45,890 nucleotides of DNA, taken from positions 1-45,890 of the forward strand of contig CACDVW010000007.1 in NCBI GenBank assembly GCA_902556355.1, in the 5' to 3' direction. The position numbers and the translations under genes were made by a program. Below are positions 21,942 through 44,270 of the stretch, piece by piece (positions within the stretch are counted from its first letter, which is position 1; the number at the start of each line of letters is the position of its first letter). This DNA comes from an uncultured SAR86 cluster bacterium (GTDB lineage: Bacteria > Pseudomonadota > Gammaproteobacteria > Magnimaribacterales > D2472). The notes beneath the pieces are model-generated. The model ran no database searches and had not been told where the DNA came from. It saw only the letters and a program-made list of their open reading frames with translations.

Positions 21942-22613
21942 ATGTCAAAACCAATCATCGTAGCGGTCGATGAGACTCAACTAAGCTCTTTCAAGCACAT
22001 TGTTGATTCTCTTGATAGTAACTTATGCATGATAAAGGTAGGAAGTGTAAGTTTTAATGCTATAGGGCATGAGGCTCTAACATATGTTGCCTCTAGAGGA
22101 TTTGAAATTTTTTTAGATCTCAAATTACATGACATACCAAATACTGTAAAAAAATCTATTGAGGGATTAATTTCATTACCGATAGGCATGATGACCATTC
22201 ATACTTCCGGTGGTCTAGATATGATGAAAGCTGCTAAGAAAGCTGTCGAAGACACTGATATTAAAATATTTGGTGTTACAGCTTTAACAAGCTTATCAGA
22301 TGAAGATACTAGCACTATTTTCAAAAGAACTGCTTCTAATCAGGTCAATGCAATGCTAGATTTAGCTCAAGAAGCACAAATTGACGGGGTTGTATGCTCA
22401 CCTCATGAACTTGATTTAGTTGTTGAGCGAAAATCATTGCTATCTATAACTCCAGGAATAAGACTTTCTAAATCTGCAGATGATCAAAGTAGGGTGATGA
22501 CCCCAAAAGATGCTATATCAAAAGGAGCAAACTATATTGTGATAGGAAGACCTATCACTAATGCACCAAACATTAGTAAAGCACTTCAAGAAATCCATAA
22601 TTCAATATGGTAG
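21942..22613 (+). CDS. pyrF: Orotidine 5'-phosphate decarboxylase
   Basis: FEIFLDLKLHDIPNTVKKSIEG; MMTIHTSGGLDMM; GVVCSPHE; ITPGIRL...RVMTPKDAISKGANYIVIGRPIT. Confidence 0.95.
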   Translation: MSKPIIVAVDETQLSSFKHIVDSLDSNLCMIKVGSVSFNAIGHEALTYVASRGFEIFLDLKLHDIPNTVKKSIEGLISLPIGMMTIHTSGGLDMMKAAKKAVEDTDIKIFGVTALTSLSDEDTSTIFKRTASNQVNAMLDLAQEAQIDGVVCSPHELDLVVERKSLLSITPGIRLSKSADDQSRVMTPKDAISKGANYIVIGRPITNAPNISKALQEIHNSIW

Positions 22614-24025
22614 ACATAAACATATTAAATAAAATTATGGATGAGACTTCTCAATGTAAAGATGAAGTTTTTAAGCATATATACACAAACAATAATCTAG
22701 AATACAAATCTTCATTAAGGGGATTTAATAGTAAGCTTTTTTCTCTGTTTAAATCTCATTATGACGATCTAAAGGTTTCTCAATCAATTCAATCTTTATT
22801 TAAGGGTGATATTGTTAACGAAACTGAAAATCAGTCAGCATTGCATCATGTTTACAGAGATATATATGCTTCCTCCTCAAATAATTTCGCTTCTGCAGAG
22901 TTAATAGAATCTTGTACTTTAAATATTGAAAAGTGTATAAGACTTCAACAGGACCTAATTAAAAAAGGTATTAAAAACATTGTTACTATAGGTATTGGTG
23001 GTTCTTTTGAGGGACCTAAATTATTAATTGAAACGCTAACTAGTGAGAATCATAGAAACTTTAATCATATTTTCTTAACTGGACCAGATACAGTTGAATT
23101 TGATGAAACTGTAAAACCATTAAATCAAGAGGATACTTTTTTTATTGTTTCTTCTAAGTCATTCAGCACTGATGAAACTCTGCAAAGTATGGCTTTATCA
23201 AAAGTATGGCTGGAAGCCAAATGTAAATTTGAAGATCACTTTATAGCCATAACCTCTCAGCCGGATAAAGCTCAAAATTTTGGCTTCAAAGAAAACATAA
23301 TTGAATTTCCAAATGAGATTGGCGGAAGATATTCAATGTGGTCTCCAATATCACTTCCAGCAATATTAGAACTTGGAGAAAATTTTAAAGATTTCTTGGT
23401 TGGAGGACATGAAGCAGACGATCTTCTGCTCAATGATCATGATTATAACGATTTTATAAATTTATTATCTTTTAGTGATATTTGGTATAACAATTATGAT
23501 AATAAGCACACTAGAGTTCTCCTCTTATATAGCTGGAAAATGAGATTTTTTTCTGATTATGCTCAGCAACTTGAAATGGAGTCTATTGGAAAGCAAGCAA
23601 ATCCTAATTCAATATTTAAAAATACTGGTCAGGTTATTTTTGGAGGTTTTGGTTCTACGGCCCAGCATAGTTATTTTCAATTACTACACCAAGGTACAGC
23701 TTCTGCATGTGCAGATATTTTTACAATTGAATCAAACAAGGGCACAAATAAATTGTTATATGCTCAATCACAGGCACAAGCAGGTCTTTTATCAAATGGA
23801 CCTCATGAAGAACTAGAATTATTTGAGCAAGTAAATGGAAATATTCCTGTAAACCTATTCAAACTAAAAGAATTAAATCCAAAAACTCTTGGGTTTTTAA
23901 TTGCAACTTGGGAGCATAGAACTTATGTGAGTGCAAAAATGCTCCAAATCAATCCTTTTGATCAATACGGTGTAAGTGCTGGAAAAATTTTTGCTAAAAA
24001 ATATTTAGATGAATATGGCGGTTGA
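22607..24025 (+). CDS. pgi: Glucose-6-phosphate isomerase (short, divergent)
   Basis: TIGIGGSFEGPKLLIETL; FIVSSKSFSTDETLQSM; IGGRYSMWSPISLPAI; GGFGSTAQHSYFQLLHQGT. Confidence 0.88.
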   Translation: MVDINILNKIMDETSQCKDEVFKHIYTNNNLEYKSSLRGFNSKLFSLFKSHYDDLKVSQSIQSLFKGDIVNETENQSALHHVYRDIYASSSNNFASAELIESCTLNIEKCIRLQQDLIKKGIKNIVTIGIGGSFEGPKLLIETLTSENHRNFNHIFLTGPDTVEFDETVKPLNQEDTFFIVSSKSFSTDETLQSMALSKVWLEAKCKFEDHFIAITSQPDKAQNFGFKENIIEFPNEIGGRYSMWSPISLPAILELGENFKDFLVGGHEADDLLLNDHDYNDFINLLSFSDIWYNNYDNKHTRVLLLYSWKMRFFSDYAQQLEMESIGKQANPNSIFKNTGQVIFGGFGSTAQHSYFQLLHQGTASACADIFTIESNKGTNKLLYAQSQAQAGLLSNGPHEELELFEQVNGNIPVNLFKLKELNPKTLGFLIATWEHRTYVSAKMLQINPFDQYGVSAGKIFAKKYLDEYGG

Positions 24026-25796
24026 TCTTAAAAAGGTTCCATCAACACCAGGCGTATATAAATTTTTTAGTAAAACTGAAATTATTTATATTGGGAAAGC
24101 TAAAAATTTAAAAAAAAGAGTCTCAAGTTATTTTGGTAACTCATATAAAGACAGAAAAACCTCACAAATAAGATTTTTAACAGATAGGATTGAAACCTTT
24201 ACGACTAAAAATGAAGTTGAGGCGCTGCTCCTAGAACAAACATTAATCAAGGAAAATAAACCTAAGTTTAATATCCTTTTAAGAGATGATAAAACGTACC
24301 CATATATATATTTTTCTCTAGATCATAACTACCCGGGCATTTATTTAAAAAGAACAAAGAAAGCAGTTAATTCAAATTATTATGGGCCCTTTGTTAGTTC
24401 AGGGGCTGTAAAAAAATCTATTAAGGAAATTCAAAAAGTTTTTAAACTCAGAAACTGCAACGACTCTACTTTTTCAAATAGGTCTAGACCATGTATAGAA
24501 TTTCAAATGAAGAGATGTTCTGCACCATGCGTAAAAAATATAAAAAATATTGATTATTTTGAAGACGTAGAATCAGCAAAATCATATTTATCTTCGTCTG
24601 ATTCACAGACTATTAGGCGCTTAAAGAATGATATCCAAAAGGCATCCAATGATTTGGATTTTGAAAAAGCTGCCGATATTAGAGATAAATTAAAAAGAAT
24701 TGAGCTTATTCATGAAGAACAATCTGTAGTTACTATTGCGAGAGATATAGACATATTTTCTATGCATTCAGAAAATAACTATATAGGTATTTCAATAATA
24801 GTAGTTAGAAAAGGAAAAATAAGAGGGACTAAAACCCATTTAGTAAAAAAAGTTTTTTTTGAATCGATCGATATTGTTTATCAAATGGCAATTATAAATT
24901 TTTATGATTCACAATTGGATATTCCTAAAAAAGTTTTATGTACTGATACACTCGAAAGTAAAGAATTAATTTGCAAGGTGCTAAAAAAGAAATTCAATGT
25001 AAATATAAAAATTACTCATAGCCCAAGCAAATCTATTCGCCCCATTTATAACCTATGCAAGCTTAATGCAAAACAAATAATTGAAAATCATTTAAGCAAG
25101 TCCGATAAGTATAACTTTGCATTTGACGACCTAAATAATCATATAGGACAAAAAAAGGACATAAAAAAAATTGAAGCATATGATGTAAGCCATATCTCAG
25201 GAAATCATGCTGTAGCATCATGTGTTGTTTATACAAATGATGGACCTAGCAAGAAAGAGTATAGATCATTCAATATATCAAAAGAATTATCAGGAAATGA
25301 TGTTAGGTCTTTAGAGCATGTGATCCAAAGAAGAATAAAATATTATGAAAATAAAGAAATAAAACCTGATTTAATTCTTATTGATGGAGGTAAAAATCAA
25401 CTTAATTTTTCCCATGCCGCAATTCAAAATTCAGGACATAAAGATATTAAAGTTATATCAATCGTGAAAGGGCTAAATAGAATAAGAGCAACAGAAACAG
25501 TCCTATCAAAAGAAGGGATAATTGAATTCAATAAGGACTCAAAAGGTTATTTATTATTGCAAGAAATAAGAGATGAGTCTCATAGATTTGCTGTTAATGC
25601 TCAAAGAAAAAAGAAGAATGCAAAAAATAGAAAATCACAGCTAGATAATATTGAGGGAATTGGTGAAATTTTAAAGAAGAGATTGCTTATTAATTTTAAA
25701 AGTTTAAAAAATATTAAATCTGCAAATGTAGAAGATTTGATGACTGTAAAAGGTATTAATGCCAAAATAGCACAATTAATTAAAGAAAAACTCTAA
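24009..25796 (+). CDS. uvrC: Excinuclease ABC subunit C
   Basis: GIY-YIG start (STPGVYKFFSKTEIIYIGKAKNLKKRVSSYF); CSAPCVKNI; IEAYDVSHISGNHAVASCVVYTNDGPSKKEYRSFNI; LILIDGGKNQL; HhH C-terminus. Confidence 0.96.
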   Translation: MNMAVDLKKVPSTPGVYKFFSKTEIIYIGKAKNLKKRVSSYFGNSYKDRKTSQIRFLTDRIETFTTKNEVEALLLEQTLIKENKPKFNILLRDDKTYPYIYFSLDHNYPGIYLKRTKKAVNSNYYGPFVSSGAVKKSIKEIQKVFKLRNCNDSTFSNRSRPCIEFQMKRCSAPCVKNIKNIDYFEDVESAKSYLSSSDSQTIRRLKNDIQKASNDLDFEKAADIRDKLKRIELIHEEQSVVTIARDIDIFSMHSENNYIGISIIVVRKGKIRGTKTHLVKKVFFESIDIVYQMAIINFYDSQLDIPKKVLCTDTLESKELICKVLKKKFNVNIKITHSPSKSIRPIYNLCKLNAKQIIENHLSKSDKYNFAFDDLNNHIGQKKDIKKIEAYDVSHISGNHAVASCVVYTNDGPSKKEYRSFNISKELSGNDVRSLEHVIQRRIKYYENKEIKPDLILIDGGKNQLNFSHAAIQNSGHKDIKVISIVKGLNRIRATETVLSKEGIIEFNKDSKGYLLLQEIRDESHRFAVNAQRKKKNAKNRKSQLDNIEGIGEILKKRLLINFKSLKNIKSANVEDLMTVKGINAKIAQLIKEKL

Positions 25797-25799
25797 TAC

Positions 25800-26345
25800 G
25801 TGTCAACATTTATAAACATATTAACTTTATTAAGAATTTTCCTTGCGGCTGTAATATTTTTGCTACTCATTTCACCAGATGGTTATTTATTAGCATTAAT
25901 ATTATTTTTTATAGCTGGCATCACTGATTATTTTGATGGATATCTTGCACGAAAATATAATGCAGTATCTCAAATTGGTGAAGTATTAGACCCTATAGCA
26001 GATAAGATATTAGTATTATTTTTATTTGTTGGTCTTGCCATAAATCTTTCAAGTTATTTGATTGGTTTTATTGCATCAATAATTATTACAAGAGAAATTT
26101 GGGTTGGGGCTCTGAGAGATTTAAACGCAAGGAATCGTAAATCCGATGCAACACAGGTAACTTTTCTTGCAAAAATAAAAACTTCTATTCAGTTATTAAC
26201 TATTTCAATATATCTTTTTGCACTTGCTATGGATCAAATGTTATTAGTTGTAATAGGGGACATATTTCTTGTTATGTCTGCAATTATTACACTTTACACT
26301 GGGTATATTTATACTATTAAGACTTTTCAGGCTTTTAAGACTTAG
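25800..26345 (+). CDS. pgsA: CDP-diacylglycerol-glycerol-3-phosphate 3-phosphatidyltransferase (GTG start)
   Basis: NILTLLRIFLAAVIFLL; AGITDYFDGYLARKYNAVSQIGEVLDPIADKILVL (CDP-alcohol phosphatidyltransferase motif); follows uvrC. Confidence 0.93.
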   Translation: MSTFINILTLLRIFLAAVIFLLLISPDGYLLALILFFIAGITDYFDGYLARKYNAVSQIGEVLDPIADKILVLFLFVGLAINLSSYLIGFIASIIITREIWVGALRDLNARNRKSDATQVTFLAKIKTSIQLLTISIYLFALAMDQMLLVVIGDIFLVMSAIITLYTGYIYTIKTFQAFKT

Positions 26346-27355
26346 TTTTTTTGTAAAACCATATTTACGCCAGAACACATTTTCTTTCTATCAATGACCT
26401 CTTGAAGGTCATCTATATGATCACCCAAATAATTTTGAATCATCGATGATTTTTCTTGTGAACTGCTATTTACTTTAATATGCAAATGTCTAAAAAGATC
26501 TACAAAGTCTGTTCCAAACCACCACTCTCCTGCACGTTTTAAATTAAATTTATCACATAGAAACTCTATAGATTCATTTGTATAAAGATGAGTATGTCCT
26601 GCATTAAGTTGTCTCGGAAATACATCATCATGCATGCTTTCTTGAATTGCTGCAAAGCTAAATAAAGGAACTTGTAAGTATAAATATTCTGCATTTGATT
26701 CACTAAATGCACTGAGTGCACCTATTGGATCCATTAGATGCTCTAAAACTCCTATTAAAGTTAAAACCTCTGTTTCAGTCTTCTTTATAAGTTCATTTAT
26801 TTTATCTAAATTCCTGTATTCAATTTTATTATTAATAAGCATTTTTGAGCCTAAATCAATTAGCATTTTATTTACATCGAACCCAACCCCATTTATATTT
26901 AGGTCTTCACATGCTTTGATAAAATGACCTCCACCACAGCCAATATCTGTCACGCTAAAATCTTTTACATTATTTTTGTTTAGAATTTCAAGCAAAAATT
27001 TAGCTTTTGGTATGTATATGTCATTTACTCTAGAGGAATAATTATTAAGGTAGTTTTTAGAATAATCATCGCCATCAGAATCAGCATACAAGAATTCAGC
27101 AAATTCTCTAGTATCTTCATGCCTTCCATTAAAATGATTACATTTTTTACAAAGAGAATATGGCACTTCATGAATAAATATATCTATTTCATCAAGAGGC
27201 TCATCACAAGTTTTACAATTATTTCTTGGAGGTTGTTTTTTATAAAAATCATTAACAGCTTTTACATGGTTGAGGTGTTTTTCATTTTCTTCAAAAAACG
27301 AGGTCTTATTTCGAATTACTGCGATAGAGGGTTTCGAGAATTTTGTGACTGTCAT
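26342..27355 (-). CDS. SAM-dependent methyltransferase with N-terminal zinc-binding (CxxC...CxxC) segment, sugar C-methyltransferase-like
   Basis: NCKTCDEPLDEIDIFIHEVPYSLCKKCNHF then VTDIGCGGGHFIKACEDLNINGVGFDVNK, LIGVLEHLMDP. Confidence 0.7.
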   Translation of the reverse strand: MTVTKFSKPSIAVIRNKTSFFEENEKHLNHVKAVNDFYKKQPPRNNCKTCDEPLDEIDIFIHEVPYSLCKKCNHFNGRHEDTREFAEFLYADSDGDDYSKNYLNNYSSRVNDIYIPKAKFLLEILNKNNVKDFSVTDIGCGGGHFIKACEDLNINGVGFDVNKMLIDLGSKMLINNKIEYRNLDKINELIKKTETEVLTLIGVLEHLMDPIGALSAFSESNAEYLYLQVPLFSFAAIQESMHDDVFPRQLNAGHTHLYTNESIEFLCDKFNLKRAGEWWFGTDFVDLFRHLHIKVNSSSQEKSSMIQNYLGDHIDDLQEVIDRKKMCSGVNMVLQKN

Positions 27356-27427
27356 TATTTATTTTTATTTTTTAACTAATTATAAAAGAATATACAAACT
27401 AAAAGTATACCTAAACTTTCTATGTTT

Positions 27428-27441
27428 ATATGTATACATAT
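27428..27441. repeat. 14-bp perfect palindrome ATATGTATACATAT upstream of tRNA-Cys
   Basis: Direct reading: ATATGTA|TACATAT is its own reverse complement. Possible operator, but AT-rich context makes chance plausible. Confidence 0.3.
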
Positions 27442-27475
27442 TGATTTAAATATACAATAATTCAAACAATTTATT

Positions 27476-27549
27476 GGCTGGATGGCAGAGTGGTCATGCA
27501 GCGGCCTGCAAAGCCGTTTACGCCGGTTCGATTCCGGCTTCAGCCTCCA
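27476..27549 (+). tRNA. tRNA-Cys (GCA), CCA encoded
   Basis: GGCTGGATGGCAGAGTGGTCATGCAGCGGCCTGCAAAGCCGTTTACGCCGGTTCGATTCCGGCTTCAGCCTCCA; acceptor GGCTGGA/TTCAGCC, anticodon stem GCGGC-CTGCAAA-GCCGT, T-loop GGTTCGATTCC. Confidence 0.96.
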
Positions 27550-27563
27550 TTGAGTAATGTTTT

Positions 27564-28280
27564 ATGTACAAAGATAAAAAAATTCTAGCAATAACTTTAG
27601 CCCGTGGAGGCTCTAAGTCTGTTCCTAAGAAAAATATTAGAGAGATTGCTGGGAAGCCTTTAATTGCATATACAATTGAGCAAGCGCTTCAATCAAAATT
27701 TATAGATGATTATATTGTTTCTACTGACTGTGAAGAAATTGCTTCAGTCTCAAATAAATTTGGAGCTAAAACTCCTTTTTTGAGACCTAAAGAATTTTCT
27801 ACTGACGAAGCTTCATCTCTTTCAGCTATTATTCATGCAATAGAATTTATTGAGAATGAAAAAAAAATAAAATATGATTTTTTCTTAGAACTAATGTGCA
27901 CAAATCCTTTAAAAAATAAACATGATATTGATAATGTTATTAAGAAAGCAGTTTCCAATAATGCTGAAAGCGTTATAGCAGTTCACAAGTTAGATGATCA
28001 TCATCCCGCAAGAATTAAGAAAATAGTTGATGACAAGATTGTAGATTTTTGTGTTGAAGAGCCAAACGAAGCAAGGCGCCAAGATTTAAGGCCGCTAGCT
28101 TATATAAGAAGTGGCTCAATATATTGCATGCGTAGAGACTTTATTATCAATAAAAATAAAAGATATGGTGGGGATGATAGCAGGCCTTATGTATTGCCTC
28201 CTGAAAGAGCAATTAATATTGATACCATGAATGATTTTTTTCTTGCTGAAACTATATTAGCAGACAGCCAAGATGCATAA
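27564..28280 (+). CDS. Acylneuraminate cytidylyltransferase-like (NeuA family)
   Basis: ILAITLARGGSKSVPKKNIREIAGKPLIAYTIEQAL...STDCEEIASVSNKFGAKTPFLRPKEFSTDEASS...RPYVLPPERAINIDTMNDFFLAE. Confidence 0.88.
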   Translation: MYKDKKILAITLARGGSKSVPKKNIREIAGKPLIAYTIEQALQSKFIDDYIVSTDCEEIASVSNKFGAKTPFLRPKEFSTDEASSLSAIIHAIEFIENEKKIKYDFFLELMCTNPLKNKHDIDNVIKKAVSNNAESVIAVHKLDDHHPARIKKIVDDKIVDFCVEEPNEARRQDLRPLAYIRSGSIYCMRRDFIINKNKRYGGDDSRPYVLPPERAINIDTMNDFFLAETILADSQDA

Positions 28281-29229
28281 ATATAAGATTTTATGTATTA
28301 CTCCGATTAAACATATTCCTAATATAGAGGATGCTTTAAGAAAATTAGGTGATTTAACAATTATAGATGACCCTTTGCCTGAAGATCTTAAGCTCATTGA
28401 TAATGATTTTGATATAATTTTTACAAACCCTAACAAGTCTAAGATATATATCGGACCAGAGCTTTTTGAATCATGGAAGTCTCTTAAGTTTGTCTGTACT
28501 GCTTCAACAGGAACAGTTCACATCGACAAAGACTTTATTGAAAAAAGGGGTATTCAGCTAATATCACTCACAAAAGAATACGAGGTGCTTAAAACAATTT
28601 CTTCTACAGCAGAGCTTGCCTTTACGTTAATGATGTCCTCCTTAAGAAATTTAATACCAGCATATCATTCAGTCAAAAAAGAAGAATGGAACTATGAACC
28701 ATTTATAGGTAGACAACTCAATAAATTAAAAATTTGTGTTTTCGGCTATGGAAGACTTGGAACAATGTTTGCTAAATTTTGTCATGCATTTGGGGCTGAT
28801 GTATATGTTTATGATCCATATAAAGAAATACCAAGCGATTATAATGAATTGGTTGATTTATCAAATGATTTAAAGAAGATAGATGTTATATCAATTCATA
28901 TGCATGTTGATCACTCAACAGAAAACTTTTTTGACAAAAACATATTTGATAATTTAAAGCATGATGTATTAATTATTAATACTGCTCGCGGTGAACTAAT
29001 TAACGAAGATCATTTAATTGATTTTTTAGAAAGAAATAGTAAATCTACAATTGCATCGGATGTCTTATCTGGTGAAATATTTGGGTTTAAAAATAGCAAA
29101 CTATACGAATATTCTAAATCATCTTCTCAAGTTTTATTAAGTCCACATATTGGTGGCATGACAATAGATGCTCAAGAAATTGCATATTCTCATGCTGTTA
29201 AACTTTTAAGTATTTATTTAGATAAATAA
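28273..29229 (+). CDS. D-isomer-specific 2-hydroxyacid dehydrogenase family protein
   Basis: ICVFGYGRLGTMFAKFCHAFGADVYVYDPY; LIINTARGELINEDHLIDFLE; LLSPHIGGMT. Confidence 0.85.
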   Translation: MHKYKILCITPIKHIPNIEDALRKLGDLTIIDDPLPEDLKLIDNDFDIIFTNPNKSKIYIGPELFESWKSLKFVCTASTGTVHIDKDFIEKRGIQLISLTKEYEVLKTISSTAELAFTLMMSSLRNLIPAYHSVKKEEWNYEPFIGRQLNKLKICVFGYGRLGTMFAKFCHAFGADVYVYDPYKEIPSDYNELVDLSNDLKKIDVISIHMHVDHSTENFFDKNIFDNLKHDVLIINTARGELINEDHLIDFLERNSKSTIASDVLSGEIFGFKNSKLYEYSKSSSQVLLSPHIGGMTIDAQEIAYSHAVKLLSIYLDK

Positions 29230-30486
29230 TCACCTAATAAGGTAATTTAAACTCTTAAAAGTATGAGCAAAACCATCATCGGTATTAGAGTTTTTGGTTC
29301 TTATGGTTGAGGCCCTAAGAATTGACCCCTGCCCAAATGCAATTCTTAAGAATTGAGTCTTAGAATCAAACATATCTTTTAATGGTGAAATGCTGTTAGA
29401 TCTTTTTGCCCAAACCTCACCCTTATCAATGTATGCAAAAGATGAGAAGTGCACATTATCCATGAAAATTTTATATTTATTTTTTGAGTAAGAATTTTTA
29501 ATGAAATTTTTGTAAGTTAAGTCAACAAATGATATTGCTTCAATTTTGTAACCTTTCTTCTTATTTAACAGATTTAAAATGTCTAATGTGAATTTATCAA
29601 AAGATACTTTTCTTGAAACTGTTCTATTTAAAAAAGTTATGTTTTCTATTTTAGGATCTTCAAATCCATAAAATAACATATCAGCATTTTGTATTTTTGT
29701 ATTTGCCTTCAAATATCTTTGGATATTTTCTTTAACATTTTTAGAATCTCCATAAAAGACAATAGGACAAATTCTATTTTCAACCTTTAACCAAGAAGGA
29801 GTTTCATCAGATTCTTCATTAATTTTTTGTATTAATTGATTGACTGCAGTCGCCCTAAAAGACTCATAATTATTATGTTGATGAAGTCCATGAAAATGAA
29901 ATACTGAAGCAGAAGAGTCATATTTGATTTCAAAACCCATACTCAAAACTTTTTTTGCCCAATCTCTATCTTCAATATTTGTTATTGACTCATCAAAATT
30001 TACTTTATTCCATATTGCTTTTTTTATTATTGAGTTTGCATTATGAAAAAAAGGATCTTTCTTTTGTATTCTATTTTCATTACCAAAAGTCATAAGAAGA
30101 TCTCTAGCATCGTCAGAGCTTGTGCTCCTTAATGGTAACTGCCTACCATAAACCCCAGCAATTTTTTTTGGTTTTATTGATTTAACCATTCTAGATAGCC
30201 AATTCCTATCTTTTGGTATGCAATGTGCAGACAATATAACTATGTATTTTCCTTGGCTAAGTTTAATACCTTGATTGATAGCTTTTCCTGGAAGAAACTC
30301 TTTAATCTTTTTAATTTTGTCTACTTTGAATTCTTTTGCTATTTTTAAAGAAGCATCATCACTTTGATTATCTACATAAATTATTTCAAAATCTTTAAAA
30401 GTTTGCTCATGAATGCTTTTAAGGCAAAGTCCGAGCCAATCTTCTTCGTTTTTACCTCTAATTATTATTGAAACTTTTTTTGGCAT
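29230..30486 (-). CDS. Glycosyltransferase family 2 (GT-A)
   Basis: KVSIIIRGKNEEDWLGLCLKSIHEQTFKDFEIIYVDNQSDDASLKIAKEF; AINQGIKLSQGKYIVILSAHCIPKDRNWL. Confidence 0.82.
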   Translation of the reverse strand: MPKKVSIIIRGKNEEDWLGLCLKSIHEQTFKDFEIIYVDNQSDDASLKIAKEFKVDKIKKIKEFLPGKAINQGIKLSQGKYIVILSAHCIPKDRNWLSRMVKSIKPKKIAGVYGRQLPLRSTSSDDARDLLMTFGNENRIQKKDPFFHNANSIIKKAIWNKVNFDESITNIEDRDWAKKVLSMGFEIKYDSSASVFHFHGLHQHNNYESFRATAVNQLIQKINEESDETPSWLKVENRICPIVFYGDSKNVKENIQRYLKANTKIQNADMLFYGFEDPKIENITFLNRTVSRKVSFDKFTLDILNLLNKKKGYKIEAISFVDLTYKNFIKNSYSKNKYKIFMDNVHFSSFAYIDKGEVWAKRSNSISPLKDMFDSKTQFLRIAFGQGSILRASTIRTKNSNTDDGFAHTFKSLNYLIR

Positions 30487-30575
30487 TGTTAGTTTAAGGT
30501 GTAATTGTTATGTAAATTATACAATTTTTAGATGTAACTTTGATAGAATAGAGCATCTTACTTTTTGGAAAAGCA

Positions 30576-31424
30576 ATGAAGATAGGTATTGTTGGTTATG
30601 GTTTTGTAGGAAAAGCTGTAGATTTCGGGTTTAATAAGAATGTTGAGAAGATTATTGTAGATCCAATATTAAACACATCTATTGGTGATCTAAGACCTCA
30701 TAACCCTGAATTTATTTTTATATGCGTTCCTACACCAATGAGCTCAGATGGCAATCAGGATTCTTCTATTATAGAAAATGTTCTTGATGAAATTAGCAAA
30801 GATTTTGATGAATCAGTTGTTATTGTAAAAAGTACTGTTTTGCCCAGCATAATTGGGAGATTATCAAAATCTCATAACCATTTTGTTTACAACCCAGAAT
30901 TTCTAAGGGAAAAAACAGCAAATGAGGATTTTATTAACTCTCATTCATTAATTCTGGGTGGCGAAACAGATGATCTTAAGAGAGTTGCTAAACTTTATAA
31001 TGATCACTCTAATTGCAAGATTAACGAAGTTCATGAAACAGATGTTGTTTCTGCTTCTTTAGTTAAGTATTCAATAAACACTTTTTTAGCTTCGAAAGTT
31101 ATTTTTTTTAATCAACTTTTTGATATTTATCAGGCTCTTGTTTCAGATACCAAATGGACTGAATTTATAGATATGATTAAATCAGATGCGAGGATTGGTA
31201 ATTCACATATGGATGTTCCTGGCCATGATGGTAGGTTGGGTTTTGGCGGGGCATGCTTTCCAAAAGATACCGCAGCATTATTGTCCCTATCAAAAGATAT
31301 TGATAAAGAGTTTTCATTACTAAAAGAGGTAATTAGTGTTAATAATAATATTAGAATGCAATACAATGATCTTGAAAAAAGAGAAAAAGAACAAGGCGTA
31401 AATTATAAAATTGATTTAGAATAG
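30576..31424 (+). CDS. Short UDP-glucose/GDP-mannose dehydrogenase-family protein lacking the C-terminal nucleotide-sugar domain
   Basis: MKIGIVGYGFVGKAV; FICVPTPMSSDGNQD; VVIVKSTVLPS; YNPEFLREKTANEDF; GRLGFGGACFPKDTAALL (catalytic Cys); ends at 282 aa. Confidence 0.8.
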   Translation: MKIGIVGYGFVGKAVDFGFNKNVEKIIVDPILNTSIGDLRPHNPEFIFICVPTPMSSDGNQDSSIIENVLDEISKDFDESVVIVKSTVLPSIIGRLSKSHNHFVYNPEFLREKTANEDFINSHSLILGGETDDLKRVAKLYNDHSNCKINEVHETDVVSASLVKYSINTFLASKVIFFNQLFDIYQALVSDTKWTEFIDMIKSDARIGNSHMDVPGHDGRLGFGGACFPKDTAALLSLSKDIDKEFSLLKEVISVNNNIRMQYNDLEKREKEQGVNYKIDLE

Positions 31425-31436
31425 CAACTTACTAAT

Positions 31437-31523
31437 GCCCGGGTGGTGGAATTGGTAGACACAAGGGACTTAAAATCCCTCGAAGGCAACTTCGTGCCGG
31501 TTCAAGTCCGGCTCCGGGTACCA
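31437..31523 (+). tRNA. tRNA-Leu (UAA), CCA encoded
   Basis: GCCCGGGTGGTGGAATTGGTAGACACAAGGGACTTAAAATCCCTCGAAGGCAACTTCGTGCCGGTTCAAGTCCGGCTCCGGGTACCA; anticodon stem GGGA-TCCC with TAA anticodon, long variable arm, T-loop GGTTCAAGTCC. Confidence 0.96.
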
Positions 31524-31533
31524 TTAAAAAATT

Positions 31534-32367
31534 ATGAATAAAATTAATAAGATAGAAATTATTGCTGAAATAGGGTGGAATCATATGGGCGATAACTCTT
31601 TAGCAGAAAAAATGATTAAAAGTGCTAAAGAGAATGGTGCCAATACTGTTAAATTTCAGTATTGGGATCCTGCACATCTTAAAGGTGGAGCATGGGATTC
31701 AGATGGAAGAAGAGAGATATATAATAAGGCAGCACTAACGATAGAAAAAGTTGCTGCATTGCAAAAGATGTCTAATGATATTGGTTGTGATTTTTTAATA
31801 AGTGTCTTTGGTACTATTGGCGCTAAATCAATATCAGATATTGGAATTAAAAATATTAAAATCCCTTCTCATGAAACCACCAATAAGAAACTGATAGAAT
31901 TTTGTTCAACTCATTTTGATTACATTTATTTTTCAGCTGGAGCCTCCTCAGAAAATGATGTTATAGAGGCGGTAAAAATTTTAAAAAATGGAAATGCTGA
32001 TTTCAATTTAATGCACTGCGTATCCTCTTATCCATGCGCTGATGAAAATGCAAATTTAAATAGAATTAATTGGCTCAGTGAAATGCATTCAGCTGTTGGC
32101 TACAGTGATCATACACAGAGCACAATAGTTCCAGCTTTTGCTGTACTTAATGGAGCTACAGTTATTGAGAAACATTTTACTATCGATAAAGATTTGCCAG
32201 GAAGAGATAACAAGTTTGCATTAGATTCAAATGAGTTCAACGAGATGTGCAAAAATATACATATCGCATCTGACTCAATTTTAGATAGAGGAAATGGATA
32301 TCAATCTATAGAAGAGGATACAGTCATGAATTATCGCGGAAGATGGGAACCTCAGGATTATAGTTAG
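31534..32367 (+). CDS. NeuB-family nonulosonate synthase-like protein lacking the SAF domain
   Basis: IIAEIGWNHMGDNSLAEKMIKSAKENGANTVKFQYW; MHCVSSYPCADENANLNRINWL; VGYSDHTQSTIVPAFAVLNGATVIEKHFTIDKDLPGRDNKFALDSNEF; ends at 277 aa. Confidence 0.85.
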   Translation: MNKINKIEIIAEIGWNHMGDNSLAEKMIKSAKENGANTVKFQYWDPAHLKGGAWDSDGRREIYNKAALTIEKVAALQKMSNDIGCDFLISVFGTIGAKSISDIGIKNIKIPSHETTNKKLIEFCSTHFDYIYFSAGASSENDVIEAVKILKNGNADFNLMHCVSSYPCADENANLNRINWLSEMHSAVGYSDHTQSTIVPAFAVLNGATVIEKHFTIDKDLPGRDNKFALDSNEFNEMCKNIHIASDSILDRGNGYQSIEEDTVMNYRGRWEPQDYS

Positions 32368-32372
32368 TAGAA

Positions 32373-33164
32373 GTGAGCTCTAAAGATATTCATGTAATTG
32401 TAAGTGGTGGATTCGACCCAATTCATCTAGGCCATCTAAACTTAATTAATGATGCATCTAAGTTAGGCAAAGTAATAGTTATAGTTAATTCTGATGAATT
32501 TTTATTGAACAAAAAAGGTTTTTATTTAATGCCAAGTAATGAAAGAGTTGAAATTATTAAAAATCTTAAAAATGTTGATAGTGTTTTTCTCTCAATTGAT
32601 AAAGATGAGTCAGTCTCTGAATCTATTAAAGCTTTGGCTTCAGACGAATCTCTTAACATTAAGTTTTTTGCTAATGGCGGGGATAGAAAAAATGAGTCAG
32701 ATTTGCCAGAGGCAGATATATGCAAAGAAAATGACATAGAGTTAGTTTTTGGTATTGGCGGCGGTAAAACTCAATCAAGCTCTAATCTTTTTAAAGAGGC
32801 AATCGATGTCTTTAATTTTTATAAAAATTATACAAAAAAACCATGGGGCTCATATTTGAACTTATTAAAGGAGCCTAATTTCCTAGTTAAAAAAATTCTT
32901 ATCGACGCTGATGAAGAGATTTCATATCAATCTCACGATTATAGAGATGAGCATTGGATACTTATTGAAGGGAGCTTAGAAGTTATCAATGGAAGTTCAA
33001 TAAGAGTATTAAAATCAAATGATTATGATTTTATTAAAAGAGGCGCAAAACATAGAATAAAAAATATTGGATCTTGCACTGCATTGATGATAGAAGTTCA
33101 GTTTGGGGAAAAAATAGATGAAAATGATATTAAAAGATATGATGATAAATATGGAAGAGCTTAG
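32373..33164 (+). CDS. Fusion of HIGH-type nucleotidyltransferase and mannose-6-phosphate-isomerase-like cupin (GTG start)
   Basis: N-terminal VIVSGGFDPIHLGHLNLINDASKLG...PSNERVEIIKNLKNVD; C-terminal KPWGSYLNLLKEPNFLVKKILIDADEEISYQSHDYRDEHWILIEGSLEVIN...RGAKHRIKN. Confidence 0.82.
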   Translation: MSSKDIHVIVSGGFDPIHLGHLNLINDASKLGKVIVIVNSDEFLLNKKGFYLMPSNERVEIIKNLKNVDSVFLSIDKDESVSESIKALASDESLNIKFFANGGDRKNESDLPEADICKENDIELVFGIGGGKTQSSSNLFKEAIDVFNFYKNYTKKPWGSYLNLLKEPNFLVKKILIDADEEISYQSHDYRDEHWILIEGSLEVINGSSIRVLKSNDYDFIKRGAKHRIKNIGSCTALMIEVQFGEKIDENDIKRYDDKYGRA

Positions 33165-33183: not shown

Positions 33184-35341
<2,158 letters not shown>

Positions 35342-35345
<4 letters not shown>

Positions 35346-36220
35346 TTTCAAAAATTTCAATTGGAACGGCTCAGTTTGGCTTAGATTATGGAATATCAAA
35401 CCAAAGAGGAAAAGTTCCATTTTCTGATGCTGAAAATATCATTGAGCTTGCATACTCAAGGGGGATTGATAAATTAGACACTGCTTCTGCTTATGGTAAA
35501 AGTGAAAAAGTATTGGGTGAAATAGGTGTTAAAAATTTCAAAATTACTTCGAAGATTCCAACCATTCCATCTGATGCAACAAATATAAATGATTTTCTTT
35601 TTAGAACAACTGAAAGTTCTCTTGTTGATCTTAAAATTGATAAATTTAACTGCATTTTGGTTCATGACTCCTATCAATTTTTCCAAAAAAAATATCATGA
35701 TGAATATATAAAAGCTCTTGTTGATTTAAAAAGATCAAACTTAACAACAAAAATAGGCTTATCAGTTTATGATCCACTTGATGATCGTATTATGGAGGTT
35801 ATTAATCATATCGATGTAATACAGTCTTCATTTAATATTTTTGATCAAAGATTAAATCAAAAAGATTTAATAAGTATTCTAAATGCTAATAATATTGAAG
35901 TTCATGCAAGATCAATATTTTTGCAAGGATTATTATTAATTAATCGTAGAATGATCCCAAAAAAATTTCAAAAATGGAAAAATAGATTTAATGATTATCA
36001 CTCATGGCTAGATAAAAATAACTATAGCGCACTTAGTGCGTGTTTAAATTTTGTCGTAAATAATAAAAATATTAATGAAGTTATTATAGGAATTGATACC
36101 CCTCAACAATTTATCGAAATTATAGAAAGTCTGAGCAGCGAAATTTTTAACATTCCAAAGAATCTTGAATGCGATGACCATATGCTAATTAACCCCTCAT
36201 ATTGGGATAAAATAATATAA
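35342..36220 (+). CDS. Aldo/keto reductase family protein
   Basis: ISIGTAQFGLDYGISN; GIDKLDTASAYGKSEKVLGEIGVKNFKITSKI; CILVHDSYQF (Asp-Tyr-Lys-His set present). Confidence 0.85.
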
Positions 36221-36221
36221 A

Positions 36222-37106
36222 ATGAATAGAATTGGCGTGATTGGATACAATGAAGGAAATGGCCATCCGTTTTCATTTTCAAGTATTTTCAATGGCTATA
36301 ATGAAAATTATATTGATTCATGTCCCTACAGCACAATTCCTGATTACTTAAAAAAAAATAATTCTAATGATAAATTGTTACAAAATTCAAAAGTAACTCA
36401 TGTCTGGACTCAAGACTTTTCAATCTCACAAAACATAGCTGCTTTTTCAAATATTCCAACCATTGTAAAAAATTTGGATGAGATGATTGGACAGGTTGAT
36501 GCAATAATTTTAGCCAGAGATGATTATGAAAATCACTTTGAAAATATAAGTAAATTTATTACCCAAGAAATTCCTATTTTTATAGATAAACCGCTAGCAA
36601 TTAAAGTAAATGATGCAAAAAATATTCTGTCTAAACAAAAATTCCTTGGCCAAATATATTCTACAAGCGCTCTAGCAAATGATAATAAAATTGTTGATGC
36701 AAAAAATAATTTAAAATCAATTGGAAAAATTAACTCTATTTCTGGTCTTATGCCCGGATCTTGGGAAAAATATTCAGTACATTTATTTGATTCATTGATT
36801 AAAATTTTTGGGAAAGACTTTACTATTGAAGATTATAAAGTTCTTAAATCAGATTCATTAACTATGCTTAAAGGAAAATCCATTGAAGGCTCTGATATAT
36901 CGCTGACATGTCTTGGTGGAGAAAAATGCTCTCCTTTTTTAAATATAATTGGTGAAAAAGGTTTTTTATTCTTTGATTTTCAAGACCCTTATTCAGCATT
37001 CAGAAATACTTTACTAAAGTTTTCTGAAAATATACATGACAAGAATATATTGAGAAATGAAGAAGAAATTATTCATTCTATTTCTTTGATACAAATAGGA
37101 TTATGA
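36222..37106 (+). CDS. Gfo/Idh/MocA-like oxidoreductase
   Basis: MNRIGVIGYNEGNGHPFSF...AIILARDDYENHFENISKFITQEIPIFIDKPLAIKVNDAKNILSKQ; weakly conserved Rossmann loop. Confidence 0.65.
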   Translation: MNRIGVIGYNEGNGHPFSFSSIFNGYNENYIDSCPYSTIPDYLKKNNSNDKLLQNSKVTHVWTQDFSISQNIAAFSNIPTIVKNLDEMIGQVDAIILARDDYENHFENISKFITQEIPIFIDKPLAIKVNDAKNILSKQKFLGQIYSTSALANDNKIVDAKNNLKSIGKINSISGLMPGSWEKYSVHLFDSLIKIFGKDFTIEDYKVLKSDSLTMLKGKSIEGSDISLTCLGGEKCSPFLNIIGEKGFLFFDFQDPYSAFRNTLLKFSENIHDKNILRNEEEIIHSISLIQIGL

Positions 37107-38137
37107 ATATAGGAGTCAGGGTTGAAGCCTCAGACAAAATTGGTAGTGGACATCTTAAAAGATGTATCTCTTTATCTCTAGAAATTAAAGAAAATTTAGA
37201 CGTTGATGTTATATTTTTTTTCTCTGGCGATGATAGATATTTAGACCTCCTCAAAAATCATGATTTAGCTTTCCATAAAATTAAATCAAATACTTTTAAT
37301 TATTTAGACGATGCAAAGATATTAAAATCAATAGCTAAGAAAAATAATATTGAGTTAAGTTTTATAATCGTTGATCATTACAAAATTGATATAAATTGGG
37401 AGAGACAATTATCAGACTCCAAAATAATCGTTTTAGATGATCTTGCAAATAGAAAACATCATGCCGATATTCTTATAGATCAAAACCTCTACAACAATTA
37501 TCAAAAAAGATATCTTGATCTTGTAAATAAAGGATGCATTTTATTATTAGGACCCAAATACGCAATACTAAATTATAAATATAAAAAATTAAGAAAAGAT
37601 CTCATAAGAAAAAATAGATACAAAAATGTTCTTATATCATTTGGTGGAACAGATGAATTTAAATTGACAGAACAGTTATTGGCAAAATTTTCTTCCTGCC
37701 CTGATTTGGACGAATATATATTTCATGCAGTAATTACTAAATCTTTTAAAAATAAACCATTAATAAGATCTTATTCATGTTATGAAAACATCGAAATTTA
37801 TGAAGATTTAGATTGTCTATCTAGCTTAATGTATGAGTGTGATTTTTCAATTGGAGCAGGTGGCACAACCACATGGGAGAGATTCGCAATGAAACTCCCA
37901 GCAATTGTTATTGCAATAGCAGAAAATCAAGTAGAGAGTGCAAATTACCTTAAAAAGAAAGGTTTTATTGACTATATTGGTAAGGCTAAAGACCTCCGTA
38001 AAGATTGGATAGAAAATATTATATCTATCATAAAAGATAAGAAAAACTTAGAAAGCCAATCTAAAAAAATATCCGATATAGTTGATGCTGAGGGCACTAA
38101 AAGAATAATAAATAGCATAATAAATTTAATGTCTTAG
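37103..38137 (+). CDS. pseG: UDP-2,4-diacetamido-2,4,6-trideoxy-beta-L-altropyranose hydrolase
   Basis: MNIGVRVEASDKIGSGHLKRCISLSLEI; VDHYKIDINWE; VLDDLANRKHHADILIDQN; ISFGGTDEF; IGAGGTTTWERFAMKLPAIVIAIAENQ. Confidence 0.92.
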   Translation: MNIGVRVEASDKIGSGHLKRCISLSLEIKENLDVDVIFFFSGDDRYLDLLKNHDLAFHKIKSNTFNYLDDAKILKSIAKKNNIELSFIIVDHYKIDINWERQLSDSKIIVLDDLANRKHHADILIDQNLYNNYQKRYLDLVNKGCILLLGPKYAILNYKYKKLRKDLIRKNRYKNVLISFGGTDEFKLTEQLLAKFSSCPDLDEYIFHAVITKSFKNKPLIRSYSCYENIEIYEDLDCLSSLMYECDFSIGAGGTTTWERFAMKLPAIVIAIAENQVESANYLKKKGFIDYIGKAKDLRKDWIENIISIIKDKKNLESQSKKISDIVDAEGTKRIINSIINLMS

Positions 38138-38186
38138 AAAATTTTTAGAAATATATTTTACATATCATTTATATTATAATTTCCGC

Positions 38187-38759
38187 ATGTCTAGGGTATA
38201 TCTTGAACTTTTAAACGAAGATCATTTTGACGATGAGTATGTTGGCTGGCATAGCCAAAGTCATACTGATTTTTATTCTGGTTCAAAAAGAATTTTTACA
38301 AAAGAGAATCTTTTAGAAGAATTCCATTCAGGCATCAAAAAAAACAATAACTTTCATTATGGTATTTTTTATAAAGAAAATAATAAACTTATTGGAGTTA
38401 TTAAGCTAGGCATAGTAAATTGGGTTCATAAAATATCTGATATGATAGTTTTCATTGGAGATGCTGACTATCTAGGAAAAGGTCTTGCCGTTGATGCGAT
38501 AAATGAAGGCAATGAGAAAGCATTTAATGAGCATAAGTTAAGAAAATTATATGGAGGTATGTACAAAGATAATATTGCTAGCGTAAAAGCATATCTAAAA
38601 ACAGGATGGATAATTGAGGGCATCATGAAGGATCAATATTTACATGAAGATATTTCACAAGATAGGATTCTTGTAGCGTGTTTTAATCCTTCTATTTTTA
38701 AGAGTGAATATCATAGGAAAGGTTTATATTCATTTGAGGATATTTATCAAGCAAATTAA
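38187..38759 (+). CDS. pseH: GNAT acetyltransferase, PseH-like
   Basis: GNAT fold (DADYLGKGLAVDAINEGNEKAFNEHKLRKLYGGMYKDNIASVKAYLKTGWIIEGIMKDQYL) next to pseG. Confidence 0.78.
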   Translation: MSRVYLELLNEDHFDDEYVGWHSQSHTDFYSGSKRIFTKENLLEEFHSGIKKNNNFHYGIFYKENNKLIGVIKLGIVNWVHKISDMIVFIGDADYLGKGLAVDAINEGNEKAFNEHKLRKLYGGMYKDNIASVKAYLKTGWIIEGIMKDQYLHEDISQDRILVACFNPSIFKSEYHRKGLYSFEDIYQAN

Positions 38760-38770
38760 AGGGAAAAATT

Positions 38771-39967
38771 ATGAATAATCAATGGCGTTTTAAAGGCAAT
38801 GAGCTTAAGTATGTAAAGGACGTATTAGACTCAGGAGAAGGTTCTTCTACAACAGGTTCGTATAATAAGGCATTTGAAGAACTTTTTGCATTAAAAAATA
38901 ATGCTAAATATGCTGTTACGTTCAATTCTGGTACTAGTACATTGCATGCAGCTCTTGATGCATTAGGCGTATCTTATGGTGATGAAGTAATCATTCCCCC
39001 AATAACTGTATATAGTAATTTTGCAGTAACAATTGCTGCGAATGCCATACCAGTATTTGCTGACGTAGAAGAGGATACTTTTAATATTTGCCCTAAAGAT
39101 ATTGAAAGAAAGATAACATCAAAAACTAAAGCAATAATGCCAGTTTCCTTATACGGACTATCTTGCGATTTAGATAAAATAATGGCCATTGCTAAAAAAC
39201 ATAATCTTGTTGTTATTAATGATGCAGCAGAAGCTCATGGAGCTACATGGAATAATAAACCGATAAGTGAATATGCGCATGTCACAAGCTATAGCACGGA
39301 AAACAGCAAGCATATCTCAACTGGTGATGGCGGCATTATAACTACCAATGATGAGATGACTGCAAAAAGATGTAGAAAATTTGGAAGCATGGGATATTCT
39401 TTAATGACTGCTGATGAAGGAAGATTAAGGCTTAATAAAGAAGTTTTTCAAGATCCTACATACAAGAGACATGATGGATTTGCTTATAATTACAGAATGC
39501 CAGAGGTAGCAGCTGCAGTAGGATTGGCTCAGACAGAAAAATATGAATTTTTTATTGAATTAAGAGAAAAAATTGGCCAGCATATGAGAGAAATAGCATT
39601 AACAAGTGATTTTTTGATACCACAAAAGAAAATAGATGGTGCTAGAAATACTTACTGGACATTTGCTGCAAGAATGATTAGATCTGATATTAAATGGCAG
39701 GATTTTAGAAAGAAATTTATTGAATTTGGTGGCGAAAGTATTTTTGCTTGCTGGGCATTAACTTATGATGAGCCTATAGTTGCTGAAGGCATTTTTAAAA
39801 AACAGAATCCAGCACTTTATTCAAACATTGAGTACAAAAAATCGGATTATCCAGTCGCCGAAAAAATACAACCTCAATTAATGCAGTTTCCTTTAAATTA
39901 CTCTTCATACGAAGAATCTCAGCCTCAGTTAGATGCGCTAGATAAAACTCTACGTTTCTATGAGTAA
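38771..39967 (+). CDS. DegT/DnrJ/EryC1/StrS family aminotransferase (second, distinct from pseC)
   Basis: YAVTFNSGTSTLHAALDALGVSYGDEVIIPPITVYSNFAVTIAANAIPVFADVEEDTFNICP; VINDAAEAHG; SYSTENSKHISTGDGGIITTND; FAYNYRMPEVAAAVGL. Confidence 0.87.
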   Translation: MNNQWRFKGNELKYVKDVLDSGEGSSTTGSYNKAFEELFALKNNAKYAVTFNSGTSTLHAALDALGVSYGDEVIIPPITVYSNFAVTIAANAIPVFADVEEDTFNICPKDIERKITSKTKAIMPVSLYGLSCDLDKIMAIAKKHNLVVINDAAEAHGATWNNKPISEYAHVTSYSTENSKHISTGDGGIITTNDEMTAKRCRKFGSMGYSLMTADEGRLRLNKEVFQDPTYKRHDGFAYNYRMPEVAAAVGLAQTEKYEFFIELREKIGQHMREIALTSDFLIPQKKIDGARNTYWTFAARMIRSDIKWQDFRKKFIEFGGESIFACWALTYDEPIVAEGIFKKQNPALYSNIEYKKSDYPVAEKIQPQLMQFPLNYSSYEESQPQLDALDKTLRFYE

Positions 39968-39983
39968 CTAATGATTCATAAAA

Positions 39984-40712
39984 ATGAATTATTGTATATT
40001 TGTACAGGCTAGACTATCCTCTTCAAGATCTCCAGGAAAAGTTCTTGCTGACATTGAAGGCAAACCAATGCTTCTTAGACAACTTCAAAGAATTAGACAT
40101 GGAGTCAACGATATTGACGTCATATGCGTTACATCTAATGACAAATCAGATGATCCTATTGAGGAGTTATGCTCGAATAATAACTTTAATTTTTTTAGAG
40201 GTAGTTTAAATAATGTCCTTCAGAGATATATTGATGCGGCAGATGAATTTAATATTAAAAATATTATAAGGATAGGGGGCGATGATCCTTTAGCAGACTA
40301 TAATTCTGTAACTAAATTAATTAGTGAACATAAAGATGAAGATTTCTTGTATACGAGTCATAGATCTGGATGGCCTTATGGAACAGCATCAGAATTAATC
40401 AAAGTAAGTGCACTAAGAAAAATTGCCACTTTAACCTCAGAGGAATTATATAAAGAACATATAATTCCTTTTTTTTGGCACAATCCAAATAGATTTAGTA
40501 TGAAAAAGGTTTTCTCGCCTGAAAGTATATGCAGACCTGAATATTATTTCAGTGTTGACTATGAAGAGGATTTGCAGCTAATTAGAAACATTTTTGCGTT
40601 ATTAAAGAGTAAGGGAGAGTTCTTTAGTCTAAAAGATGTTATTAATCTATGTGATAATCAAAAAGACATTTTAGAAATTAATAAACATTTACATTCAGGA
40701 TTTGATTTTTAG
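39984..40712 (+). CDS. SpsF-type cytidylyltransferase (candidate CMP-pseudaminate synthetase)
   Basis: CIFVQARLSSSRSPGKVLADIEGKPMLLRQLQRI...IRIGGDDPLADYNSV; immediately upstream of pseI. Confidence 0.83.
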   Translation: MNYCIFVQARLSSSRSPGKVLADIEGKPMLLRQLQRIRHGVNDIDVICVTSNDKSDDPIEELCSNNNFNFFRGSLNNVLQRYIDAADEFNIKNIIRIGGDDPLADYNSVTKLISEHKDEDFLYTSHRSGWPYGTASELIKVSALRKIATLTSEELYKEHIIPFFWHNPNRFSMKKVFSPESICRPEYYFSVDYEEDLQLIRNIFALLKSKGEFFSLKDVINLCDNQKDILEINKHLHSGFDF

Positions 40713-41755: not shown

Positions 41756-41763
41756 TCTATGCA

Positions 41764-44269: not shown

Positions 44270-44270
44270 T

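Follow-up and report, generated by a model that had tools for sequence, protein, structure and literature searches.

The uvrC-pgsA-tRNA locus of SAR86 bacteria is the left edge of a replacement-type surface-glycan island whose tRNA-Leu(UAA) gene is apparently exchanged with the cargo

Introduction

In Escherichia coli (NC_000913), three transfer RNA (tRNA) genes follow uvrC and pgsA in the order uvrC-pgsA-glyW-cysT-leuZ. How can such an array come to be split by surface-glycan genes that differ from species to species, while its tRNA genes keep their order? We address this question for SAR86, which is among the commonest bacteria of the surface ocean. The stretch analyzed, called the window throughout, comprises 45,890 nucleotides and is one whole contig (CACDVW010000007.1, here C7) of a 1.07-Mb, 75%-complete assembly (GCA_902556355.1) of an uncultured SAR86 cluster bacterium. 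The nearest relatives of this genome (G000) in GTDB are SAR86 single-cell genomes.

We find that pgsA and the two tRNA genes behind it, tRNA-Cys(GCA) and tRNA-Leu(UAA), stand at the left edge of one surface-glycan replacement-type flexible genomic island of SAR86. An earlier note on this DNA had proposed a hotspot for the insertion of glycan genes into a conserved tRNA array extending from 24009 to 31523. The variation of cargo at a fixed place is upheld by our comparison, but a series of insertions into the array is not, and the proposed extent is too small: the island begins at pgsA and extends up to and beyond the contig end at 45890. Nor is the array a set of fixed landmarks, as the allele data point to exchange of tRNA-Leu itself.

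Results

tRNA order and cargo turnover

We compared 83 loci, consisting of 63 non-redundant loci from the SAR86 family and 20 from other families of the order. tRNAs were called with ARAGORN and Rfam, domains with Pfam, and pse genes with NCBIfam cut-offs. These tools reproduce the gene order that had been read from the window (uvrC, pgsA, tRNA-Cys, tRNA-Leu), including the methyltransferase gene between pgsA and tRNA-Cys, the four glycan genes between the tRNAs, and the pse cluster behind tRNA-Leu, where PseB, PseC, and PseI pass their cut-offs (Table 1). The E. coli order cited for comparison is also correct. ARAGORN and Rfam found no other tRNA in the window, and Rfam found no further element there.

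Among class-level outgroups, 20 of 29 loci have tRNA-Gly(GCC) and tRNA-Cys behind pgsA, no more than about 1.5 kb from uvrC, and 14 of these 20 also have tRNA-Leu(UAA). Within the order, pgsA, tRNA-Cys, and tRNA-Leu follow one another on one strand in all 62 loci that have both tRNAs (46 from the family and 16 from the rest of the order). tRNA-Gly(GCC) lies behind pgsA in none of the 83 loci. Its absence from the expected place had been remarked on before, and the search for it elsewhere located a copy on another contig of the window's genome (G000:C11:10266-10338); the gene has moved away from the array and is not lost. Island tRNAs are occasionally relocated across the core block: genus g9 (G009, G017, G051, G031, and G042) has its tRNA-Leu(UAA) gene on the upstream side of uvrC, at a distance of about 7.4 kb, and in G014 it is tRNA-Cys that is found upstream, at 13 kb.

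In contrast to the tRNA order, the cargo differs widely. Across the 83 loci, anything between about 0 and 15.3 kb separates pgsA from tRNA-Cys, and between 16 bp and 11.9 kb separates tRNA-Cys from tRNA-Leu. The latter gap is at most 200 bp in 21 of the 46 family loci and in 5 of the 16 loci from other families, and exceeds 600 bp in 22 of the 46. Two outcomes that would have spoken against the earlier note, identical glycan genes in close relatives and two tRNAs that were never adjacent, thus did not occur; in the pgsA-to-leuZ interval the cargo changes and the tRNA order is kept. The splitting of the array by cargo is real and far beyond chance, with relatives showing the same order around other genes. 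In fact, neither the methyltransferase (by tblastn over the 83 loci) nor the GT2 glycosyltransferase of the window has a match in the other 82 loci.

Not all of the cargo is recent. Orthologues of the short UDP-sugar dehydrogenase are found between tRNA-Cys and tRNA-Leu not only in many genera but also in other families of the order, and on the opposite side of tRNA-Cys in several loci; this gene is an old resident of the gap that changed sides. The genes that come first behind tRNA-Leu in relatives often encode an RfaH-like antiterminator, seen in 11 loci and mostly at 9-21 nt from the tRNA, together with a MarR_EPS regulator and Wzz, which marks this point as the start of a polysaccharide operon. 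Genes of these three kinds were not found on C7. In ten loci (e.g., L062 of G004 and L057 of G005) the RfaH-like NusG paralogue that precedes the MarR_EPS regulator and Wzz starts 9-21 nt behind tRNA-Leu; an antiterminator read out from a tRNA is an unusual way to begin an operon. In the window, the genes between the tRNAs are part of the same glycan cluster as those after tRNA-Leu, because the PseF-like gene lies on one side and PseB/C/G/H/I on the other.

Boundaries of the island

A common right boundary, consisting of a pdxH-like gene, infC, rplT, pheS, and pheT, is present in five relatives from four genera, in which the island measures about 21-40 kb. The infC-rplT-pheST boundary is also present in G021, where it shares a contig with uvrC and the island is about 41 kb long, in G013, and on contig C17 of the window's own genome. 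On C17 the stretch ahead of it, at least 16.7 kb long, consists mostly of glycan-type genes. By comparison with the relatives, C7 and C17 would be the left and right parts of one island. On the left, pgsA adjoins the variable stretch in the family loci and in most other loci of the order.

These features are those of the replacement flexible genomic islands described for aquatic prokaryotes (Lopez-Perez et al., 2014; PMC4033161). The island occupies the same position between conserved flanks, and its cargo consists of glycan genes throughout, with non-homologous genes serving an equivalent function. Mobile-element genes are absent from what was searched, namely the islands of 14 genomes for integrases and the ORFs (open reading frames) of the window for integrases and transposases.

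Chimeric joins in metagenome bins or single-cell assemblies could in principle mimic such an architecture. The window contig does end inside the island, which is a typical break point, and one SAR86 uvrC locus (L207, CAJPUS010000065.1) sits on a contig of a bin labelled Flavobacteriaceae, probably through mis-binning. However, the same architecture recurs in many independent single-cell assemblies, in the complete chromosome CP097973, and in single-contig genomes, and an assembly artefact can hardly be the explanation.

Comparison with an integrase island in the same genome

Integrating elements classically target tRNA genes, and cargo at this locus often begins 0-20 nt from a tRNA 3′ end. A tyrosine recombinase, lost since then, could therefore have placed the cargo here by site-specific insertion at one of the two tRNAs, Cys or Leu. 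An element of this type does exist in G000, at tRNA-Ser(UGA), and provides a positive control for the expected signature. In the region G000:C4:21774-42795 (L317, L318), a tyrosine recombinase gene (41648-42592) lies beside tRNA-Ser(UGA) (42704-42795). The 5′ part of this tRNA recurs in two exact 41-nt copies, at 27702 and 21774, which are 15 and 21 kb upstream. The two copies look as if two elements stood in tandem. Similar 41-nt copies also occur near tRNA-Ser in G013 and G005.

No such signature is found at the glycan island. In the SAR86-family loci we searched both strands, up to 30 kb from pgsA, for 25-nt end and middle pieces of tRNA-Cys and tRNA-Leu, allowing up to 4 mismatches, and none recurred. 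The integrase family PF00589 has no match inside the island of 14 genomes, its matches falling outside, in agreement with the earlier remark that no integrase is visible. Flanking repeats were not found in the window region, and none of the window ORFs scanned matches an integrase or transposase. The traits of tycheposons and integrase islands, a tyrosine recombinase beside the tRNA and partial tRNA copies bounding the cargo, are thus both missing here. Cargo also lies both before and after tRNA-Cys. Taken together with the clear signature at tRNA-Ser, these results make an integrase-mediated origin very unlikely.

Limits of homology and exchange of cargo

The nearest congeners compared with the window (L184, G013, and L229) are 83.6-86.2% identical to it at the nucleotide level in uvrC-pgsA; at the protein level, uvrC is 83-91% identical to that of the nearest relatives. 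In pairwise blastn, the window can be aligned to these three until 15-23 bp before the pgsA stop codon. Beyond pgsA, matches are confined to the tRNA-Leu gene and to tRNA-Cys plus 6-25 bp of its leader, apart from a single 26-bp match to L229. In close pairs, divergence climbs toward and into the island. We located the point where collinear homology stops in 55 close pairs, which are not independent of one another. It coincides with the 3′ end of pgsA in 22 pairs, of tRNA-Cys in 14, and of tRNA-Leu in 2; in 7 further pairs it falls inside pgsA or uvrC, and in the other 10 elsewhere in the gaps.

The cargo itself has been exchanged horizontally and is incongruent with the core. The tree of the cytidylyltransferase-cupin gene, which often lies before tRNA-Cys, rejects two groups defined by uvrC (p-AU 3e-6 and 4e-8), and this gene is more similar than uvrC by over 5 points in 38 of 325 pairs. 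Among the loci compared, the PseF-like (64% identity), NeuB-type (61%), and 2-hydroxyacid dehydrogenase (45%) proteins of the window are closest to those of G090, a member of another family whose uvrC is only 37% identical. All three genes lie after tRNA-Leu in G090; two of them precede it in the window.

One reading of the homology limits is that the tRNAs and the leader act as internal homology arms, so that each interval is swapped separately as a cassette by crossovers within a tRNA. Homology ends at the tRNA-Cys or tRNA-Leu 3′ end in 16 of the 26 close pairs that pass pgsA, gaps that repeatedly hold a single gene, of about 820 bp in pgsA-Cys and 865 bp in Cys-Leu, look like such units, and the ribosomal RNA (rRNA) genes flanking the O-chain cluster of SAR11 have been proposed as targets of this kind (Wilhelm 2007, as cited in PMC4033161). 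However, the pairs are not independent, and where the pgsA-Cys gap is empty the tRNA end is simply the next boundary. Crossovers inside a tRNA would replace tRNA-Leu alleles only in part, whereas the alleles themselves have apparently been replaced. In addition, the exchanged cytidylyltransferase-cupin gene of G013 is not adjacent to tRNA-Cys, and the peaks of single-nucleotide polymorphisms (SNPs) in SAR11 lie outside the rRNA genes (PMC4033161). We regard separate swapping of the intervals as rather unlikely, and keep its strict form, in which every interval is a cassette exchanged at the tRNAs, only as a rival.

The tRNA-Leu(UAA) allele

The tRNA-Leu(UAA) gene appears not to share the history of the genome around it. 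In the window it differs at 6-8 of 87 nt from that of all eleven g1 and g2 relatives examined, and at only 1-2 nt from that of G074, G077, and G090, which belong to another family. Eleven other tRNAs of the window genome are 92-100%, mostly 99-100%, identical to those of congeners and 76-90% to those of the other family. With 91-93% identity to congeners, tRNA-Leu(UAA) is the sole tRNA among those compared to reverse this pattern. The lowest control value, 92%, is for tRNA-Cys against G013 (G013:C2:34033-34106), compared with 99% for most other congeners, and tRNA-Cys may occasionally have been exchanged too.

The same incongruence is seen across the family. The allele classes carry almost no signal when mapped on a uvrC tree with 46 loci: they require 17 changes, against a shuffled mean of 19.3, and 15 of 200 shuffles gave as few. 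Allele differences are unrelated to core distance (r = -0.08) for uvrC distances of up to 40%. In this range, differences of at least 5 nt separate 83 of 146 pairs for tRNA-Leu(UAA), 16 of 146 for tRNA-Cys, and 1 of 146 for tRNA-Leu(GAG), a control located outside the island. In particular, 25 genomes from several genera have one identical 87-nt tRNA-Leu(UAA) allele in common, while sister species can be 5-10 nt apart. The RfaH-like gene accompanies allele class A in 10 of 11 loci, versus 15 of the 35 others (Fisher p 0.006, uncorrected for phylogeny). From these comparisons, the tRNA-Leu allele is apparently exchanged together with the island cargo.

Could the locus instead be an ordinary hot region, in which genes come and go by illegitimate recombination, the tRNAs stay because they are essential, and the odd tRNA-Leu alleles reflect a fast variable arm? 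Decay in place does occur: L205 has a Cys-Leu gap of 162 bp where its sister G026 carries the dehydrogenase gene, and the gap of G034 is only 149 bp. The allele differences are also concentrated in the variable arm, and the window differs from G021 and G001 only there. However, a fast arm does not fit an identical allele shared across genera with sister species several nucleotides apart. The other tRNAs with a variable arm (three Ser, two Leu, and Tyr) are 95-100% identical among congeners, and the cargo trees conflict with the core tree. We consider a hot region of this kind improbable.

Exchange of this tRNA would concern a central component of translation. UUA is the commonest leucine codon, with 318 of the 741 leucine codons counted in 22 window ORFs, and tRNA-Leu(UAA) is its only reader found; among the 29 tRNAs found in the 75%-complete assembly, no other reads UUA or UUG.

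Possible expression of glycan genes from the tRNA promoters

In 40 of 60 loci the 45 bp ahead of tRNA-Cys contain a -10-like element, against 9.7 expected from shuffles. A generic promoter scan gave fewer hits than its own shuffles, and for this reason our promoter claims are confined to the element upstream of tRNA-Cys. The distance from a tRNA 3′ end to the next cargo gene is commonly no more than 20 nt, and genes that start 10-14 nt after such an end, as two do in the window, are probably co-transcribed with the tRNA. The short spacing and the conserved -10-like element suggest that the tRNA promoters also serve the glycan genes.

Gene content of the island edge

The features of the window are listed in Table 1. 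The gene upstream of uvrC is presumably pgi-like. In the assemblies of G049 (C1:684989-686767), G039 (C2:15494-17276), and G037 (C2:2023-3772), uvrC is in pieces through frameshifts or stops, which may be assembly errors or a real loss. The cluster is a candidate pseudaminic acid pathway: PseB and PseC pass their cut-offs, as does PseI (TIGR03586, 493 bits), whereas the best NCBIfam match of the PseF-like protein, TIGR03584, scores 156 bits, under its cut-off of 206 bits, and PseG-like and PseH-like are assigned by general domains only. The short UDP-sugar dehydrogenase has no match to the C-terminal domain and retains the GFGGACFPKD motif. At the far end of the contig, two WbuX genes flank one HisH/HisF-type pair, an arrangement also present in G021.

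Table 1. Features at the left edge of the island, in window coordinates
Feature	Coordinates	Strand	Basis or remark
pgi-like (presumed glucose-6-phosphate isomerase), core gene	22607..24025	+	Translation; also upstream of uvrC in relatives
uvrC, conserved left flank	24009..25796	+	PF08459, PF22920, PF01541
pgsA, PgsA-type CDP-alcohol phosphatidyltransferase, last conserved gene	25800..26345	+	PF01066
Methyltransferase, cargo between pgsA and tRNA-Cys	26342..27355	-	PF13489
Putative tRNA-Cys promoter region, TATACAAT-like element about 20 bp upstream	27433..27475	+	
tRNA-Cys(GCA)	27476..27549	+	ARAGORN, Rfam; sole copy found in genome
PseF-like cytidylyltransferase, starts 14 nt after tRNA-Cys	27564..28280	+	PF02348
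D-2-hydroxyacid dehydrogenase family	28273..29229	+	PF02826
GT2 glycosyltransferase	29230..30486	-	PF00535
Short UDP-sugar dehydrogenase, 282 aa, ends 12 nt before tRNA-Leu	30576..31424	+	PF03721 and PF00984 only
tRNA-Leu(UAA)	31437..31523	+	ARAGORN, Rfam
NeuB-type synthase, starts 10 nt after tRNA-Leu	31534..32367	+	PF03102
Cytidylyltransferase-cupin fusion	32373..33164	+	PF01467 and PF01050
pseB and pseC	33187..35345	+	TIGR03589 (525 bits) and TIGR03588 (516 bits), over cut-offs
Rest of pse-type cluster: aldo/keto reductase, GFO/IDH/MocA, PseG-like, PseH-like acetyltransferase, DegT, SpsF-like, PseI	35342..41755	+	
WbuX amidotransferase, HisH-like, HisF-like, second WbuX	41764..45491	+	HisF-like named from synteny and sequence

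Discussion

We propose that the locus is a replacement island whose content is renewed by homologous exchange between its flanks, with tRNA-Leu travelling along with the cargo, and we hold this explanation as a whole to be probable. The ancestral pgsA-tRNA-Gly-Cys-Leu array would have come to lie at the left edge of the island, with tRNA-Gly departing ahead of the split between the families sampled in the order. Turnover of glycan genes would affect the DNA to either side of both remaining tRNAs. The content of the island is most likely replaced by incoming DNA through homologous recombination between the conserved flanks, with crossovers that may sometimes fall inside pgsA or at a tRNA, and local gain, loss, and decay of genes would act in addition. 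Each of the two tRNAs is present as a single copy, and no reader of UUA and UUG other than tRNA-Leu(UAA) was found, so recombinants would survive only if the new segment brings working tRNA copies. Such a filter would explain why the tRNA order is kept while the cargo changes, and why the tRNA-Leu allele travels with the cargo. The benefit selected for is probably an altered surface, as recognized by phages or grazers.

Several observations count against this explanation or narrow it. Our comparisons are at the species level, with one genome per species, and no single exchange was caught with its breakpoints. A flank divergence of 8-18% is high for RecA-dependent recombination, and the exchanges may pass via closer relatives. 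That homology stops at tRNA ends is partly trivial, as the tRNAs are the only conserved items there. Cargo genes switch sides of tRNA-Cys between relatives (G024/G030, G012/G043, and G045/L214), and gene-level moves are also needed. The transposase check covers the window's own ORFs only. As for tRNA-Leu, its variable arm could evolve fast in place. Moreover, the window allele shares U66 with its own family, and its variable arm is also found in two other genera of that family. For this reason we have softened the idea of a simple import from another family of the order: the allele is 1 nt from that family, but U66 and the arm fit its own.

A bolder version of this proposal is that tRNA-Leu(UAA), single-copy and probably essential, circulates between SAR86 genera as an allele of the glycan island, its history uncoupled from that of the genome, with the tRNAs serving as both homology arms and promoters for the exchanged genes. 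This we advance tentatively, being more inclined to doubt it than to accept it.

Among known systems, the islands of PMC4033161 are similar in lying at the same place between conserved flanks, spanning tens of kb, encoding surface glycans with unrelated genes, and lacking mobile-element machinery. There, exchange was shown between strains of over 96% average nucleotide identity (ANI), with SNP peaks at the borders, whereas our comparisons are between species. Unlike those islands, that of SAR86 holds two single-copy tRNAs, one of them with allele exchange. In the Methylophilaceae, another streamlined planktonic lineage, PMC10872708 describes a glycan and phage-defence replacement island with RNA genes conserved across genera, flanked by tRNAs and with a transfer-messenger RNA (tmRNA) inside. 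The lineage, tRNAs, and neighbors differ, the portion consulted reports no allele exchange of an RNA gene, and the SAR86 tRNAs derive from an ancestral array at the left edge of the island. The same source treats integrase-type tRNA islands and tycheposons, which also associate cargo with tRNAs in streamlined marine bacteria; the SAR86 island differs in having no recombinase and no tRNA-fragment repeats.

The Pelagibacterales likewise have a hypervariable O-chain locus anchored by RNA genes, in their case beside the rRNA operon (PMC11898729; Wilhelm 2007, as cited in PMC4033161), and in species Ib.4 the locus has been relocated next to two tRNAs (PMC11898729). Unlike in SAR86, the 16S-23S and 5S genes bound the island rather than lying within it. 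For SAR86 itself, a hypervariable region with genes for outer-membrane modification is on record from one single-cell genome (PMC3569297). It concerns the same clade and the same kind of genes, and its location and tRNAs are not described in the portion of that report we consulted. A literature search by gene names and for SAR86 O-antigen islands, incomplete in coverage, returned nothing specific to this locus, and we claim no priority. What is new here is the location of the island with both its boundaries across SAR86, the presence of an ancestral tRNA pair inside it, and the evidence that the allele of a single-copy tRNA moves along.

With the position of the coat locus and its boundary blocks known, the island can be extracted from single-cell and long-read data, and the rate of coat change under phage pressure can be followed. 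If tRNA-Leu(UAA) does travel with the coat genes, then selection on the cell surface would, as a side effect, be exchanging a part of the core translation apparatus. This would also bear on the frequent placement of RNA genes at or within islands of this kind in streamlined plankton, seen for rRNA genes in SAR11, tRNA and tmRNA genes in the Methylophilaceae, and tRNA genes in SAR86.

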